Shown here: piece by piece, positions 16,735 to 21,703 of the stretch
How the letters are laid out: each line of letters opens with the position of its first letter
Position numbering within the stretch: position 1 is the first letter of the stretch
Virus record (IMG/VR): IMGVR_UViG_3300037847_000274
Location: 1-25,088 of that record
DNA: 25,088 nt
Strand: one strand, 5' to 3'
Source: a virus
Notes under the pieces: model-generated
Seen by the model: only the letters and a program-made list of their open reading frames with translations
The model's database searches: none
What the model was told of the DNA's origin: nothing
Made by a program: the position numbers and the translations under genes

Positions 16735-17150
16735 GAACTTTTACTGCCTACGACAGAAAAATTTTTACATACGCCTTAAAGAATATAACTATTAATAATA
16801 ATAACTATTAAGTATTATTATCTATTAAGTATTAATACCTCTAAGTATTATACTATAAGTAATTATACCGCCATTCTATCATATGTCAAGCCTTAATGTA
16901 AGAAATATTATTAATAATATTAATATATGTTGTTATCAACATCAAAATACTACATATAGGTCTTTGAACTATATACATTTACCCAAAGTCAACAAAATAA
17001 TCTTCTTTTATTTACGAATAAAAAGAATATTCTTCTATATATTCTACATATAAAAGAATATATTTCCAATATAAGTATTAAACCCTTGTTATTACTATAT
17101 ATTATTCTATATAGGTGGTAACCTGCAAGTAGTTACCAACTAAAATACCA
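16735..17150. other. AT-rich divergent region without genes
   Basis: About 415 bases of extremely AT-rich DNA separate the leftward and rightward blocks. It contains repeated TATTAAGTATTA/CTAAGTATTA units around 16806-16855, a 16-bp palindrome ATATTATTAATAATAT near 16906-16921, AGAATATTCT and further TATA-rich inverted repeats near 17025-17060. The position, repeats and easy melting would suit a replication origin or operator region, but no initiator-binding repeats are recognised. A weak rightward promoter could be TTGTTA (17086) -N16- TATATA (17108). Confidence 0.5.
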
Positions 17151-17152
17151 CC
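17114..17152 (+). other. Inverted repeat GGTGGTA...TACCACC
   Basis: GGTGGTA (17114-17120) and its exact complement TACCACC (17146-17152) flank an inner stem GGTAAC...GTTACC. The element borders the AT-rich region and leads into a CCCCTCTGTCAT that recurs at 21715. It could be a cruciform-forming site or RNA hairpin; the function is unknown. Confidence 0.4.
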
Positions 17153-17478
17153 CCTCTGTCATTATGGGTATACACGTACCTATAGACCCGCCATGGCTCA
17201 TGCACGGGTAGCCCCTACAGGGCTTCCTACGTGTAAAATCCTACGGATTTACAGCTACATACAATGCTAAAGCATTGTTTTCTATTGTTTTTACAAACAA
17301 TAAGGGATTATCTGCCTGTAAATATCAAGATATTTATGGATGGTTTTGAAAAACTAGGTAAAATTACCTAGAGACAACCATATCCCCTTGGGATTAATCC
17401 TGCATATACACCCTTAGCTTTTCCTTGCGCATTATGCCCACCAAAAGTTGAGAAAGTTTTCCCCTAAAGGGGAAGTGT
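17151..17478 (+). ncRNA. Hairpin-rich non-coding leader or candidate structured RNA
   Basis: No convincing reading frame is present. Successive hairpins on the plus strand include AGCCC/GGGCT near 17208, ACAATGC-taaa-GCATTGT near 17260, TATTGTTT-ttac-AAACAATA near 17282, TAAATATC-aa-GATATTTA near 17319, CTAGGTAA-aa-TTACCTAG near 17354 enclosed by ATGGTT...AACCAT, and TTCCCC-taaa-GGGGAA near 17459. The nested pair around 17340-17390 gives a longer stem. This could be a structured 5' leader of the early mRNA or an independent RNA; the strand is assumed from the downstream genes. Confidence 0.4.
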
Positions 17479-17499
17479 AATCTCGGAAGTTCCGTGAAT
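17479..17499 (+). repeat. 21-bp palindromic repeat, copy R1
   Basis: Core CTCGGAAGTTCCGTG, followed at once by a second hairpin AAACTC-taaa-GAGTTT. It lies 110 bases before the first early gene. It is one of six same-orientation copies sharing CGGANDTTCCG. Confidence 0.8.
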
Positions 17500-17528
17500 A
17501 GGTAAACTCTAAAGAGTTTAAAAAGTGC

Positions 17529-17558
17529 TTGACTTTCGATTTGGATCAGTGTTACAAA
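17529..17558 (+). promoter_or_regulatory. Possible rightward early promoter
   Basis: TTGACT (17529), an 18-base spacer, then TACAAA (17553) followed by GTAAGG, reminiscent of the TAAGG after the leftward promoters. The -35 is good and the -10 moderate. It would start transcription about 45 bases before the first early gene and downstream of repeat R1. Confidence 0.4.
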
Positions 17559-17592
17559 GTAAGGGCTTCGGCAATGGTGCTGAAGCATAACC

Positions 17593-17607
17593 CAAATCGG
17601 AGATTTG
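17593..17607 (+). promoter_or_regulatory. Shine-Dalgarno presented in a hairpin loop, gene at 17610
   Basis: CAAATC-gga-GATTTG forms a six-base-pair stem whose three-base loop is GGA; the GGAGA ribosome binding site begins in this loop and runs into the 3' arm, and the ATG follows two bases after the stem. The same arrangement occurs before the gene at 18336. This decides the start at 17610. Confidence 0.6.
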
Positions 17608-17609
17608 AT

Positions 17610-18260
17610 ATGACAAATACAGCAACTTTACCTACGGTAACATTGAACAGCACTTTCAAGCTAGGACGTAAGTCCTACACAATGAGGGAAGCCATACAAC
17701 ATGGTTGTAATGTTCACGACAAGATATGTCTTCTTACAGAAGATTGGAAAGCTGATGCTTTGCCTCTCTATAGAGAGTTTGGCAACATTTGTTTACAAAT
17801 GGAAGCACTCTTTCTTGGTAACAAGAAAGCTTACGGTAGCTTTATAGCTACCACCGATTTCAGCAATGATGTAATCAGCTCTGCTGATAAGTATGATGCC
17901 AAGTGGATTGCCACTCACTGGACTAAAGTCCAGAGCTTAAATAAGTCTGGAAGACTTAATGCTCTTGGCGTATCTTCCATTAGGAAGATTGTGCTTGAGG
18001 CTTACCCAGAGCTTCGTAAGAAGCCGAAAGCTGATAAACCTGCTTCAGCAGGTAATACTTCAAAAGGCAAGCCAAAGGCTTCCCCAGAGGTCACAATGGC
18101 TGGAAACGAAGTTTCCAAGATCAAGCCTACAGTCTTTGAGACTGTCGTTGCCAAGAACGAAGTTGAACTTGCAGAGCAAGTTTTCGATCAGATGCAAACC
18201 CTTGGGTTTGACAGACTGAAGTTCTCAAGAGCATTCAATGCTCTTTTCAAGAAGTCGTAA
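17610..18260 (+). CDS. First early gene, unknown function, hairpin-tiled coding DNA
   Basis: 216 aa. It starts MTNTATLPTVTLNSTFKLGR; the middle part (NICLQMEALFLGNKKAYGSF, KWIATHWTKVQSLNKSGRLN) looks helical and globular. A Lys/Pro/Ala/Ser linker KKPKADKPASAGNTSKGKPK lies at about 142-165, and the C-terminal helix VELAEQVFDQMQTLGFDRL is followed by a FNALFKKS end. I recognise no family. Upstream TTG and ATG codons in frame are rejected because GGAGA precedes this ATG. The coding DNA is exceptional: about twenty short perfect hairpins lie inside it (see findings). As the first gene after the divergent region it may encode an early takeover or regulatory protein; that is inference from position. 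Confidence 0.7.
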   Translation: MTNTATLPTVTLNSTFKLGRKSYTMREAIQHGCNVHDKICLLTEDWKADALPLYREFGNICLQMEALFLGNKKAYGSFIATTDFSNDVISSADKYDAKWIATHWTKVQSLNKSGRLNALGVSSIRKIVLEAYPELRKKPKADKPASAGNTSKGKPKASPEVTMAGNEVSKIKPTVFETVVAKNEVELAEQVFDQMQTLGFDRLKFSRAFNALFKKS

Positions 18261-18290
18261 GACTTCCTTGAGCTTCCCTTCGGGGAAGCT
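18251..18290 (+). terminator. Double hairpin after the first early gene
   Basis: GAAGTC-gtaa-GACTTC (18251-18266) spans the stop codon, and AGCTTCCC-ttcg-GGGAAGCT (18271-18290) follows, a perfect eight-base-pair stem with a UUCG tetraloop closed by C-G. No T-run follows, so it is more likely an mRNA-stabilising or processing hairpin than a rho-independent terminator. Confidence 0.55.
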
Positions 18291-18293
18291 TCC

Positions 18294-18314
18294 ATTCACG
18301 GATTTTCCGTGATT
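18294..18314 (+). repeat. 21-bp palindromic repeat, copy R2
   Basis: Core CACGGATTTTCCGTG between the double hairpin and the next gene; its end lies 21 bases before the ATG at 18336. The inner base pair differs from the other copies, but the outer CACGG/CCGTG arms are perfect. Confidence 0.8.
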
Positions 18315-18317
18315 AAC

Positions 18318-18334
18318 TTTAATCGGAGATTAAA
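18318..18334 (+). promoter_or_regulatory. Shine-Dalgarno presented in a hairpin loop, gene at 18336
   Basis: TTTAATC-gga-GATTAAA, a seven-base-pair stem with loop GGA, ends one base before the ATG. The loop and first 3'-arm bases make GGAGA. The stem sequence differs from the copy at 17593 while the loop and geometry are the same, which points to selection on structure. Confidence 0.65.
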
Positions 18335-18335
18335 A

Positions 18336-18533
18336 ATGTACGAAAAATATCTTGGTGTTAATATATTAACACATGGTTCTGTTGATGAAGCAAAATACTT
18401 TTGCTTTGCTTATCAAGGTCAACTCATAACCGATGGTTATGGTAACACTCTCAAGCTTGAAAAGAGAGGTGAAAACAACCTTGACAGAGTCAAGGGATTT
18501 ATAGAGTGCTTAGCAGCACTCGGTGAAATTTAA
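18336..18533 (+). CDS. Small early protein, unknown
   Basis: 65 aa: MYEKYLGVNILTHGSVDEAK, YFCFAYQGQLITDGYGNTLK, then a helical end. The fold looks like a small alpha/beta protein; no family is recognised. The start at 18336 is chosen over an in-frame earlier codon because the GGA-loop hairpin immediately precedes it. Coding DNA carries GTGTTAA-tata-TTAACAC, AGCAAAA-tac-TTTTGCT, CATAACC-gat-GGTTATG and GAGTGCT-tagc-AGCACTC hairpins. A rho-independent terminator follows. Confidence 0.65.
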   Translation: MYEKYLGVNILTHGSVDEAKYFCFAYQGQLITDGYGNTLKLEKRGENNLDRVKGFIECLAALGEI

Positions 18534-18536
18534 AAT

Positions 18537-18560
18537 AAGCCCTCTTCGGAGGGCTTTTTT
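18537..18560 (+). terminator. Rho-independent terminator
   Basis: AAGCCCTC-ttcg-GAGGGCTT with an immediate run of T's. Eight base pairs with a UUCG loop closed by C-G make it a strong intrinsic terminator for rightward transcription, three bases after the stop of the 65-aa gene. It implies a new promoter or read-through control for the genes from 18701. Confidence 0.85.
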
Positions 18561-18565
18561 AGTTT

Positions 18566-18700
18566 ATACTTCTTTGAAGTATATCTATTCTCGGAAATTC
18601 CGTGAATGGTTAAACTTCTTTGAAGTTTATTTTTTCTTTTTATTAATAATAAAAAAGAGAGACCTCTGCAAAACTAGACCTTTGAAACAGGAGAATACCT
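18566..18700 (+). other. Leader with repeat R3 between two similar hairpins
   Basis: ATACTTC-ttt-GAAGTAT (about 18567-18583), then the 21-bp repeat R3 (18587-18607, core CTCGGAAATTCCGTG), then AAACTTC-ttt-GAAGTTT (about 18613-18629), then an AT-rich run and the CAGGAGAATACCT ribosome binding site for the gene at 18701. The two flanking hairpins share stem and loop sequence (ACTTC-ttt-GAAGT). No reading frame is supported here. Confidence 0.6.
18587..18607 (+). repeat. 21-bp palindromic repeat, copy R3
   Basis: Core CTCGGAAATTCCGTG; the outer A/T bases also pair, so apart from one T-T mismatch in the arms it is symmetric. It sits 93 bases before the ATG at 18701. Confidence 0.8.
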
Positions 18701-18937
18701 ATGAAACTACCAGACATGAACAACGTGTATGTAACACACAAGGGAAGAGAGATATCTATCTCTCACCATAGAAATTATGGGAATTGGCATGATGAGCGAG
18801 AGATCGCTGTATTACCCGATAAAGACAAGGGCGAAACATATGACATAACATTTTATGGCAGATCGCTAGACAGTTTAATCAATAGATTAATAGAAGTTCG
18901 TGATAACATTGATAAGGAGAGTACGAATGCTAAATAA
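18701..18937 (+). CDS. Small early protein, unknown
   Basis: 78 aa: NNVYVTHKGREISISHHRNY, REIAVLPDKDKGETYDITFY, GRSLDSLINRLIEVRDNID. The strand-rich first half and C-terminal helix resemble small phage proteins I cannot name. CAGGAGAATACCT precedes the ATG; the same ribosome-binding string recurs before the genes at 19355 and (shorter) 24356. The end overlaps the next start by 11 bases. Confidence 0.65.
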   Translation: MKLPDMNNVYVTHKGREISISHHRNYGNWHDEREIAVLPDKDKGETYDITFYGRSLDSLINRLIEVRDNIDKESTNAK

Positions 18938-19190
18938 ACTTAATTACATAGAACATTGGGGCTACGTAGAACACGTAGACCATAACAAAATTCTTGGTTA
19001 CAAGACCTGTATCTTTACTGGTAAAGATAATGTTATGCCTTTGCCTATAAGACAGGGGCAACTTGAAGCTTGGGTAGACTCTACCATCTTGGTACAAGAT
19101 GCGTTCCCTCATCTAAACAAGAGCCAAAGGGAATTTATTAAATCAGGTTGTAGCCCAGAGGATTGGGATATACTATTTTCAGACGAGTGA
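18927..19190 (+). CDS. Conserved early phage protein (EWD-type C-terminus)
   Basis: 87 aa from the ATG at 18927, preceded by AAGGAGAGTACGA. The end VQDAFPHLNKSQREFIKSGC, SPEDWDILF follows the 'vQd-fP-L---eREfl-tG-tpeEWd-lF' pattern seen at the C-terminus of small early proteins in many tailed phages. The function is unknown. An earlier in-frame codon at 18900 lacks a ribosome binding site. Confidence 0.7.
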   Translation: MLNKLNYIEHWGYVEHVDHNKILGYKTCIFTGKDNVMPLPIRQGQLEAWVDSTILVQDAFPHLNKSQREFIKSGCSPEDWDILFSDE

Positions 19191-19194
19191 TAAC

Positions 19195-19398
19195 ATGATA
19201 CCTAAACGCAACAGGTCTGCCAGACGTGCAGATAAGTATTGGCAATCTGTTTTCTTACAACAGATGTTGATGCCTCAACGGGGCTTGACAAACAAGTTAG
19301 ACCTCGCTAAACCTAATCTCGGAAATTCCGTGAATGAAAAACAGGAGAATACTAATGGAAGAATTAATCGACAAAGTTATAGACCAAATCAAAGATGA
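19195..19398 (+). CDS. Doubtful small basic reading frame
   Basis: 67 aa, starting MIPKRNRSARRADKYWQSVF, basic and low in hydrophobics. It begins four bases after the previous stop without a clear ribosome binding site and runs through repeat R4 and into the next gene in another frame. The N-terminal 40 residues could be real and the rest read-through; alternatively the whole frame is fortuitous. Confidence 0.35.
   Translation: MIPKRNRSARRADKYWQSVFLQQMLMPQRGLTNKLDLAKPNLGNSVNEKQENTNGRINRQSYRPNQR
19285..19313 (+). promoter_or_regulatory. Possible rightward promoter abutting repeat R4
   Basis: A perfect TTGACA at 19285, 17-base spacer, TAAACC at 19308, then repeat R4. The -10 is poor (three of six). 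If used, R4 would lie at the transcription start, the position of a repressor operator. Confidence 0.3.
19315..19335 (+). repeat. 21-bp palindromic repeat, copy R4
   Basis: Core CTCGGAAATTCCGTG, preceded by AAACC like R5. It is 19 bases before the ATG at 19355; the ATG formed at its 3' edge (19334) is in frame with that gene and could be an alternative start. Confidence 0.8.
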
Positions 19399-19504
19399 TT
19401 TGGATAAACGTGAGTTACTAGCGTTACATGAATTGCTTTTGTGTATCCCTAAAGAAAATTTAGAAAGTTTTTTATCGGAGGCAAACCTATGCAATACGAA
19501 GTAA
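19355..19504 (+). CDS. Small acidic/helical early protein
   Basis: 49 aa: MEELIDKVIDQIKDDLDKRE, LLALHELLLCIPKENLESFL and a short tail. An amphipathic helical hairpin is likely. CAGGAGAATACTA lies directly before the ATG, the same ribosome-binding string as the gene at 18701. It overlaps the next gene start by 16 bases. No function is known. Confidence 0.6.
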   Translation: MEELIDKVIDQIKDDLDKRELLALHELLLCIPKENLESFLSEANLCNTK

Positions 19505-19710
19505 ATATCGTTCACAACATGAACAAGGAAGCTAATCCAGACAGCACCAAGATTATCTGGAAGCATTGGGGTAGGCTAGTATTATCTAGCGACAGCAAAG
19601 AGATGGCTCTTGAAAAGGCTAGACATCTGCAAGATGTACTAGGTCAAGACTATAAGACAGAGACATGGCTTGCCATGAAAGTATCAGAAAGGGTACGTGA
19701 TGAAAGTTGA
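19489..19710 (+). CDS. Small early protein, unknown
   Basis: 73 aa: MQYEVNIVHNMNKEANPDST, WKHWGRLVLSSDSKEMALEK, ARHLQDVLGQDYKTETWLAM. Beta-strand start, then helix, then strand, as in small single-domain phage proteins. TCGGAGG seven bases before the ATG is a strong ribosome binding site. It overlaps the next gene by 11 bases, consistent with translational coupling. Confidence 0.65.
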   Translation: MQYEVNIVHNMNKEANPDSTKIIWKHWGRLVLSSDSKEMALEKARHLQDVLGQDYKTETWLAMKVSERVRDES

Positions 19711-20098
19711 AATCTATTTTAATTTACATAAGCGACTGTTCTCTATAAGAGAACGACATGGCAAAGTGATTGCTCACAAAAGATGGGTGGGTCTAGTTAG
19801 ACCTACGTTTGTTGTGCAGCAAGGTGGACGTGAACGTGTTCTTAGAGACAAGTCTAAGAATGTTCATGCTTTCGTTAGACCCGAAGGGTATCAGGGTATG
19901 GATGAGGTAATACCCTTTGACATACTGGATGGCTACACGACTGTACGTTACAACCCGTACAAGTACGCATCATTTGTGGACGAGAACGAAGATCCTATCT
20001 TCGAAGCTGATGTTGGATTCATGTACCTTGACAAACAAAATAAACCTGTTATTAAGGTAGCAAGCTTGGATCAAGCACAACAAATACTAGAAACCTAA
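19700..20098 (+). CDS. Conserved phage early protein (NLHKxLFS type)
   Basis: 132 aa from the ATG at 19700 (AAGGG six bases before). It begins MKVEIYFNLHKRLFSIRERH, GKVIAHKRWVGLVRPTFVVQ, then GGRERVLRDKSKNVHAFVRP. The 'vyvNLHK-lfSv--GkVvaha--v-l-----V---Gr-rV--e-kKnVHAfv' pattern is widespread in tailed phages infecting proteobacteria; the function is unknown. The stop codon TAA forms the left edge of repeat R5. Confidence 0.7.
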   Translation: MKVEIYFNLHKRLFSIRERHGKVIAHKRWVGLVRPTFVVQQGGRERVLRDKSKNVHAFVRPEGYQGMDEVIPFDILDGYTTVRYNPYKYASFVDENEDPIFEADVGFMYLDKQNKPVIKVASLDQAQQILET

Positions 20099-20117
20099 TC
20101 ACGGAGATTCCGAGAAT
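20097..20117 (+). repeat. 21-bp palindromic repeat, copy R5
   Basis: Core CACGGAGATTCCGAG. It begins in the stop codon of the 132-aa gene and ends in the start codon of the GP88-like gene, so it is the whole intergenic space. GGAG inside it is nine bases from the ATG and must also act as the ribosome binding site; symmetric base pairing would then occlude it. Confidence 0.8.
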
Positions 20118-20814
20118 GACTGTAACAACCCAAGAACTAAATGATCTATTCAGACACTGTGCAGATATTGGCATGGCGGCAACGGATAGACCTATCAACG
20201 ATACAGAGAACCATACTGGTTCTTGTGATCACAGAACAGATTACTGTGATGACACTTGTTATAACATTAAGTTATACAATATGTATCCTAACATGGCTAA
20301 ACGTGATGACAGATGCGAGACTATCTGGCAGAAGCTAGACAAGTCTAACTCTGACTTCACTCAATTCTTTAGTCGTAAACAGTACGATACTAGTCGTGTA
20401 CGTCACATGACCAGAGGCGAAGCATTCAAAGACATCAAAGATGTCTATCGTGTAAAGACTATGTGCTTGCTCAATCCCGACATCTTGTGGTGGATACCGA
20501 CACGAGCATGGCGTAACCCAAGGATAAAATCCTTGATTGAGAAAGAGCTAATGCCTCTTGACAATTGTGCAATCAATGCTTCACTAGATCCATCTAACAG
20601 CAAAGCTGAATGGCAGATGCTGATTGACGATGATTGGAACATCATGTTCTATGGTGATGATACGTTGACACATGATCCTGTATATGGCAAACGTATGTTT
20701 GCTTGCCCCAAGACACACAAGGGTCTGAAGGGTCACTGCATGGATTGCAAGGCAGGTTGCTTTGCACAGAAGACTATTAACCGAACCCAGATAGTTCATC
20801 TATCTGAACACTAA
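20116..20814 (+). CDS. GP88-like cysteine-rich protein
   Basis: 232 aa. A Cys/His-rich start GSCDHRTDYCDDTCYNIKLY, a middle VRHMTRGEAFKDIKDVYRVK followed by LNPDILWWIPTRAWRNPRIK and NCAINASLDPSN, and an end ACPKTHKGLKGHCMDCKAGC. The order (Cys cluster; 'fw-yTRaWR'; 'aS-D'; 'CP-t----C--C--C') agrees with the mycobacteriophage Gp88-type family as I remember it. The Cys residues probably bind metal. The biochemical role is unknown. It starts within repeat R5 and ends at repeat R6. Confidence 0.6.
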   Translation: MTVTTQELNDLFRHCADIGMAATDRPINDTENHTGSCDHRTDYCDDTCYNIKLYNMYPNMAKRDDRCETIWQKLDKSNSDFTQFFSRKQYDTSRVRHMTRGEAFKDIKDVYRVKTMCLLNPDILWWIPTRAWRNPRIKSLIEKELMPLDNCAINASLDPSNSKAEWQMLIDDDWNIMFYGDDTLTHDPVYGKRMFACPKTHKGLKGHCMDCKAGCFAQKTINRTQIVHLSEH

Positions 20815-20833
20815 TCACGGAATTTCCGTGAAT
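20813..20833 (+). repeat. 21-bp palindromic repeat, copy R6
   Basis: Core CACGGAATTTCCGTG, the most symmetric copy: arms of eight around one central base. It overlaps the stop of the GP88-like gene and lies 24 bases before the DUF932 start. Confidence 0.85.
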
Positions 20834-20857
20834 GAAACTGAATGGAAGGAGAAACAA

Positions 20858-21703
20858 ATGCCATTCGATTATACTACAGACTTTGTACCAACAACCTTAG
20901 ACTTTGAAATAGAGTTTGAACCTACCAAGTTCAAAGACAAGAAGTACGTTATCAATGCCGATACAGGTGAATACCTTGGTATTGTTGGCAAAGACTTCAA
21001 GTGTGCGAACCACGGTGATTTCTTTAGACGTGTACAGCAAACACTCACAGAGACTCTACGTCCAGAGGATACCATGAACGCTACCTACAAGTGGCGTAGA
21101 GCACGAGGTGATGCATGGGCTATGCTTGACATTACCTTACCTGATATGCAGGTGGATATCGAGACAGATAGACACACAACTACGATTGGTAATCGTATCA
21201 TATCATTACATGGTATTGATGGCTCTTGTTCTAACCAAGTATTCTTTGGTCAGATAGATTTCTTTTGTACCAACGGTATGATCCGTGGTGAATACGATAA
21301 GATCCGCAAGAAGAATACTTCTAACTTTACGTTAGATGGTTTCATCAACGAGCTACAGAACTCTCGTAGAGACTTCTACGAAGAGACTGCCAAGATGAAA
21401 GTCTGGGCTAAGACTGACCTCAAGTATGTAGATGTGGAAGCATTGCTAGAAGCAATGATACCATCCAAGAGAAAAGCACAGAGGATGTTCGAACTCTATA
21501 ACATAGAGAGACAGACTCGTGGTGCTAACAAGTGGGCACTGTACTCAGCCTTCACGAACTATGCATCATATGCAGATGAACGTAACGGCTTCAAACTACG
21601 TGACACTGGCAACGATACTCAGGCTGTATCTATGTTCTCAAGAGAACAAGAGGTATCTAAATGGGTATCAGACAACCGCTTCACTCAGCTACAAGCTGCA
21701 TGA
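20858..21703 (+). CDS. DUF932 family phage/plasmid protein
   Basis: 281 aa from the ATG at 20858, preceded by GGAAGGAG; an upstream in-frame GTG at 20828 lies inside repeat R6 and is rejected. The segments KKYVINADTGEYLGIVGKDF, ANHGDFFRRVQQTLTET and GSCSNQVFFGQIDFFCTNGM are the DUF932 (TIGR03299-like) signature. The family is common on phages and plasmids; its biochemical role is not established. It directly follows the GP88-like gene, and a gap with a promoter follows. Confidence 0.8.
   Translation: MPFDYTTDFVPTTLDFEIEFEPTKFKDKKYVINADTGEYLGIVGKDFKCANHGDFFRRVQQTLTETLRPEDTMNATYKWRRARGDAWAMLDITLPDMQVDIETDRHTTTIGNRIISLHGIDGSCSNQVFFGQIDFFCTNGMIRGEYDKIRKKNTSNFTLDGFINELQNSRRDFYEETAKMKVWAKTDLKYVDVEALLEAMIPSKRKAQRMFELYNIERQTRGANKWALYSAFTNYASYADERNGFKLRDTGNDTQAVSMFSREQEVSKWVSDNRFTQLQAA

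Follow-up and report, generated by a model that had tools for sequence, protein, structure and literature searches.

Why would a stretch of viral DNA, coding and non-coding alike, be filled with short perfect hairpins, and what keeps them there? The question is raised by a 25,088-base virus record, which we refer to as the window. Its terminase is 71-77% identical to the terminases of HMO-2011, CRP-9 and CRP-13, and the window is therefore a fragment of an HMO-2011-type marine phage; relatives of both terminase and portal are present, and the arms diverge as they do in HMO-2011. Phages of this group are reported to be dominant and widely distributed in the ocean (PMC9038755). The structural genes are read leftward from 16692 and other genes rightward from 17610, with the hairpin zone lying at the start of the rightward arm (Table 1). 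A promoter-like site with a perfect sigma-70 consensus (TTGACA-16-TATAAT) is located on the minus strand at 16889-16862 and reads into the leftward structural arm.

Hairpin density in the window

The original prediction listed 13 hairpins in the 651-bp first rightward gene and claimed that such repeats exceeded chance. All 13 proved to be exact perfect inverted repeats, and the excess was stronger than had been claimed. The gene, which encodes 216 aa, contains 18 stems of at least 6 bp, compared to 2.46 in codon-preserving shuffles (maximum 8 in 200) and 4.77 in shuffles preserving both codons and dinucleotides (maximum 10 in 60). For stems of at least 7 bp, the gene has 12, while the two controls gave 0.66 (maximum 3) and 1.40 (maximum 4). 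Neither type of shuffle ever reached the observed counts. Because the controls preserve codons, composition and codon use are excluded as the cause of the density.

Perhaps the density is a property of the first gene's coding sequence? We rejected this, since the density crosses the gene ends and includes the leader. As had been predicted, the leader is hairpin-dense and the pattern continues into the 65-aa gene, whose 5 stems of at least 7 bp compare with 0.84 in shuffles. Counting stems of at least 7 bp with loops of 2-8, we found 15 in 17001-18000 and 19 in 18001-19000 (dinucleotide shuffles, 0.4 and 0.8); the other kilobases of the window have mostly 0-2, with up to 6 in the 19-21 kb region. 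Hairpins with a stem of at least 6 bp cover 45% of 17200-18640, compared to 3% in shuffles. The zone also extends past 18630: right-arm genes to approximately 22 kb carry about 3-5 times the codon-shuffle count, and left-arm structural genes about 1.4-2.4 times.

The hairpins are small, with stems of 6-9 bp and loops mostly of 3-5 nt, at about 15-27 per kb. We found no Rfam match in the window, and apart from a 17-nt intergenic module the hairpins share no sequence. A mobile element of the Rickettsia palindromic element, REP or MITE type was rejected, as the hairpin copies have no common sequence. Promoter-like hairpins such as those of the N4 virion polymerase, and sites resembling lambda boxB, were considered but not retained, since the hairpins have no sequence in common in either their stems or their loops. 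A loop preference on the sense strand that was strong in first counts weakened once redundancy was removed (TAAA, 10:7; GNA triloops, 22:8 versus a background of 54:34), and the GGA loops are partly Shine-Dalgarno sites.

Several recurrent elements were observed in the window. Hairpins with a Shine-Dalgarno GGA triloop have covarying stems in relatives and occur also in HMO-2011 and CRP-1; this display of the Shine-Dalgarno sequence ahead of two genes, in triloops whose stems covary, is clearly a feature at the RNA level. The 17-nt palindromic module (TCTCGGAAATTCCGTGA type) has six intergenic copies between right-arm genes, at 17481, 18296, 18589, 19317, 20099 and 20815, and HMO-2011 and CRP-1/CRP-345 have their own, different modules (AGTCCGACAGCGGACT; GTCCAAYGTTGGAC). 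Modules of this type are possibly operators, processing sites or terminators. A conserved non-coding stretch, AGCTTTTCCTTGCGCATNATGCNCACCAAAAG (window 17418-17475), is common to the leaders of two relatives, L003 and L110, and lies directly 5' of the CCCCTAAAGGGG hairpin. A ribosome-binding module, AAACAGGAGAATACNNATG, is repeated before several right-arm genes (window 18685, 19339 and 24340).

Table 1. Features of the hairpin zone, in window coordinates
Feature	Position	Strand	Basis
Non-coding leader 5' of first rightward gene, dense in hairpins	17236..17520	+	Hairpin list, L110 comparison
Hairpin AAATCC-TAC-GGATTT; loop inverted (GTA) in relative L110	17236..17250	+	
Hairpin TAAACTC-TAAA-GAGTTTA; loop inverted (TTTA) in L110	17503..17520	+	
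Hairpin CAAATC-GGA-GATTTG with Shine-Dalgarno GGA in loop, immediately 5' of ATG	17593..17607	+	Stem covaries in relatives
First rightward gene, 216 aa, basic (pI 9.5), without known family; 18 hairpins with stem of at least 6	17610..18260	+	
Hairpin AGCTTCCC-TTCG-GGGAAGCT, 3' of stop codon; also in L110	18271..18290	+	
Second Shine-Dalgarno-in-loop hairpin, TTTAATC-GGA-GATTAAA, 5' of 65-aa gene	18318..18334	+	
65-aa gene; 5 hairpins with stem of at least 7	18336..18533	+	Codon shuffles
Terminator-like hairpin, UUCG loop and T tract	18537..18560	+	
Hairpin TAAACTTC-TTT-GAAGTTTA; loop inverted (AAA) in L110	18611..18629	+	
Fading part of zone across further right-arm genes	18701..21703	+	

Paired changes in stems and inverted loops

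Is it structure, rather than a sequence motif, that is maintained, as was originally proposed? The comparison with homologues supports the proposal: stems show compensatory paired changes and slower synonymous change, and zone stems are kept twice as often as chance hairpins elsewhere. Neither shuffles matching the observed count nor homologues with freely broken stems were obtained. Homologues that are 65-71% identical are encoded on nine contigs, and the dense zone is present in all nine. In the codon alignment, stems at homologous places carry paired changes, such as GGA CGT AAG TCC versus GGT CGT AAG ACC and ACA GTC TTT GAG ACT GTC versus ACT GTC TTT GAG ACA GTG; other hairpins have moved. 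Both arms lie within an intact open frame and encode conserved residues, as in coding palindromes of the Nematomorpha type. Two-sided Watson-Crick changes exceed the expectation under independence, most clearly in close pairs (5 versus 0.6 expected for L010/L002; 4 versus 0.4 expected for L002/L008). In most homologue-group pairs, codons in stems have changed synonymously about half as often as codons outside (e.g., 10/59 versus 48/110, p=0.0006); between the window and L010, stems do not show this slower change.

The non-coding leader can be followed in the same way. The window and L110 leaders are 88.5% identical, and of their 54 stem pairs 53 are unchanged, 1 has changed on both sides and 0 on one side. 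Within the window's subgroup, leader stems changed by 1.9-3.6% and their surroundings by 9-13%, that is, 3-7 times less in stems. Strong conservation of leader stems is limited to this subgroup: over all pairs the figures are 144/1626 for stems versus 1107/8509, and in several pairs stems changed faster than their surroundings. Relatives keep 60% of zone stems compared to 29% of chance hairpins elsewhere in the genome, and the two-sided share of changes in kept stems is 0.50 versus 0.26 elsewhere (p=6e-30; this and the other small p-values are strong rather than exact and overstate certainty, because the counts are unique comparisons that are not phylogenetically independent). Comparing L110 (1606-2241) with the window (17610-18260), we also observed that the first gene is mosaic: its flanks are 89-94% identical, the middle is replaced and protein identity is 49%. 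This suggests recombination in a fast-evolving gene.

We wondered if the hairpins carry marks of template switching, for which spacer inversion and arm homogenization are known footprints (PMC8604942, PMC8794818). We examined cases in which two phages have an identical stem and a differing loop, using matched non-hairpin sites as controls. Among fully changed 3-nt loops, the new loop was the reverse complement of the old in 11/25 cases versus 9/371 control sites (p=7e-10); among 4-nt loops with two changes, the figures were 14/55 versus 52/2989 (p=3e-12). All sequences compared are metagenomic or isolate consensus, and in the closest pair, the near-identical L004/L005, the hairpin TATACTTC-TTT-GAAGTATA is also found with an AAA loop, while CACGGAAATTCCGAG versus CACGGAATTTCCGTG shows an inverted centre and a corrected arm mismatch together. 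Spacers are thus replaced by their reverse complement on unchanged stems, and both arms change together with mismatches corrected. Of the three causes originally suggested, template switching that perfects quasi-palindromes is therefore well supported by the sequences compared, and a purely mRNA-based cause is disfavored for reasons given below. Hairpins in single-stranded DNA, acting in replication, are a possible third cause. Counted per hairpin, loops were inverted in 9/342 cases in the zone versus 3/405 elsewhere, a difference that is only suggestive (p=0.075) and does not establish that template switching is locally raised.

A first-gene family and its zone

What sort of protein does the first gene encode, and does the zone travel with it? 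The 216-aa product has a pI of 9.5, its family a pI of about 8.7, and the family's N-terminal 125 residues a pI of about 10. In the protein and its relatives, the N-terminal domain is helical, the linker that follows it is of low confidence, and the C-terminal part has two helices. It had no match in PHROGs, Pfam, PDB by sequence, PDB by fold, or BFVD, and a relative was not found in genome_contigs. Using the neighboring gene with a DUF932 domain as an anchor, we obtained 80 further loci; wherever a locus extends far enough, its hairpin-dense gene is the first rightward one (190-230 aa), and counts in other right-arm genes stay low. An iterated profile links the first-gene proteins to HMO-2011 gp74 (4e-47) and, weakly, to the protein in L110 that is homologous to that of the window (2e-4). 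The window protein likely belongs to the same family as gp74, a placement that is marginal because the latter match is weak.

A further scan, which located 171 first-gene loci, gave 79 genes of HMO-2011-type marine phages, 57 of them non-redundant. Of the non-redundant first genes, 53/57 exceeded all 50 codon shuffles (mean, 9.3 versus 1.54). When the loci are aligned at the gene start, hairpins are no denser than background up to -1100 and modestly frequent in an AT-rich stretch at about -950 to -750. Their density climbs from about -450 to a peak at -300 and holds at 14-18 per kb across most of the gene. The zone then crosses the first-gene end and fades over 1.5-5 kb.

Cultured HMO-2011, CRP-1 and CRP-345 have both the first-gene family and the zone. 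The family is absent from 10 of the 13 sequenced relatives, and so is the zone from 9 of the 10; in the tenth, CRP-9, the zone is weak. If CRP-9 is scored as having no zone, family and strong zone are associated (Fisher p=0.0035). This co-occurrence may reflect a functional tie or just shared descent. Our literature searches for hairpins in HMO-2011-type phages returned no earlier description, and a survey of these phages mentions neither palindromes nor inverted repeats. We conclude that the feature is real and conserved and, as far as our searches reached, undescribed.

Proposed origin and retention of the hairpins

The retention of stems in the zone, the two-sided changes, the loop inversions and the leader data together favor template switching plus selective retention, an explanation to which we give about an even chance. 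The zone heads a rightward, probably early, operon of HMO-2011-type phages; under this explanation, short inverted repeats there would form and be kept perfect through DNA polymerase template switching: after one arm mutated, the other would be copied as its complement, and the spacer would sometimes be reversed in place. In the zone, unlike the rest of the genome, the structures would also be retained by selection, leaving hairpins in coding and non-coding DNA. The sequences themselves show the density and where it is conserved, the paired changes in stems, the inverted loops, and stems being kept more often than chance hairpins. Selection would work through hairpins, either in the 5' part of the operon's transcript or in DNA that is single-stranded, and that the phage gains by them is something that we infer. 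It is possible, though doubtful, that this is a new kind of element: a kilobase-scale, motif-less array of mini-hairpins, tied to a basic helical first-gene family, actively kept perfect through template switching and serving, as DNA or as RNA, when infection begins.

Perhaps the main cause is instead selection for hairpins in early mRNA (for nuclease resistance, evasion of RNA-targeting immunity, or blocking of Rho or backtracking), with template switching just supplying variants? This would fit a zone that begins at the operon head and fades along it, the Shine-Dalgarno sequences in covarying loops, and the halved synonymous change in stems of most homologue pairs (p down to 6e-4). RNA structure should tolerate G-U, and the sense strand should therefore be favored. 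Among one-mismatch stems of the 57 loci, G.T indeed outnumbered A.C (54 versus 28, p=0.005; null, about 15:16), a sign of some role at the RNA level, which a process confined to DNA would not predict. However, in the window's subgroup, where the zone is extreme, G.T equaled A.C (9 versus 8); an early excess there (25:12) was lost in a wider subgroup sample (31:23; 9:8). The folding excess was -110.7 sense and -108.8 antisense kcal/mol/kb in the subgroup's zone, and -56.9 sense and -54.8 antisense over the 57 loci. These strand differences (-1.9 of -110.7 and -2.1 of -56.9 kcal/mol/kb, p=0.11) are not significant, and for first genes alone the mean difference was -0.1 (p=0.92). The strand test itself works: the E. 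coli rRNA control gave -26.8 sense and -13.7 antisense kcal/mol/kb, half of its excess being strand-specific. Both strands of the zone carry almost the same folding excess, in contrast to rRNA, which disfavors a purely mRNA explanation; nor would selection on RNA be expected to invert loops. Symmetry between the strands dominates the pattern, and the wider family adds a modest signal of the RNA type. For the resistant mRNA originally envisaged, the strand symmetry of folding and the modest G.T excess of the wider family point in different directions, and we consider mRNA selection somewhat unlikely as the main cause.

Could the hairpins be functionless, the zone being a template-switching hotspot created by a replication origin, R-loops or heavy transcription beside the divergent promoters? 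Loop inversions and arm conversion, the strand symmetry of the folding excess, the sharp left edge adjoining an AT-rich intergenic stretch and the one-sided fading across gene boundaries are all consistent with this. Transcription-associated quasi-palindrome mutation is known in yeast (PMC3820800), and template switching alone can make arms look conserved (PMC8604942). However, leader stems in the window's subgroup change 3-7 times less than their surroundings, a hotspot does not predict the association with one first-gene family, and the per-hairpin inversion rate is not clearly higher in the zone. We regard a neutral by-product as unlikely. That the basic helical protein encoded by the first gene targets the array, as DNA or as RNA (for instance, an origin or regulator inside the gene for its binding protein), is improbable: the zone is centered on the first gene, the family is basic, and 3/3 relatives with the family have a strong zone while the 10 without it lack one, but the hairpins share no sequence, the protein matches no known family or fold, and the sequenced relatives are few and related, so that co-inheritance is enough to explain the association.

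As HMO-2011, CRP-1 and CRP-345 are cultured, it is testable whether short coding inverted repeats in general are a mutational by-product or a selected feature, and whether template switching can render a whole operon structured.

How does the zone compare with known systems? The coding palindromes of Nematomorpha mitochondria (Mikhailov et al. 2019, PMC6649704) are likewise perfect inverted repeats in functional protein-coding genes with both arms coding; their positions are partly species-specific, and template switching has been discussed as a possible mechanism. Those repeats average 43 bp, reach 142 bp and occupy mitochondrial genes, whereas the phage stems are 6-9 bp and confined to one operon end. 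In yeast coding genes, template switching homogenizes arms and inverts spacers of coding inverted repeats (Abraham and Hazkani-Covo 2021, PMC8604942), but as scattered single events in 39 genes, with spacer inversions only at arms of >9 bp; the phage zone is dense and has inversions at arms of 6-8 bp. Template switching also creates and maintains RNA hairpins, a single event accounting for loop inversions as well as for changes on both sides of a stem (Monttinen and Loytynoja 2022, PMC8794818), though at rRNA and microRNA loci with known RNA function, where loop inversions are rare. Transcription-associated mutation in yeast turns imperfect into perfect inverted repeats, only under high transcription (Kim et al. 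2013, PMC3820800); that work used reporter assays and described no natural hairpin zone. Beside these systems, the phage zone offers a natural, closely packed record of template switching in a phage group reported to be dominant in the ocean, and shows coding genes evolving under a second, structural code.
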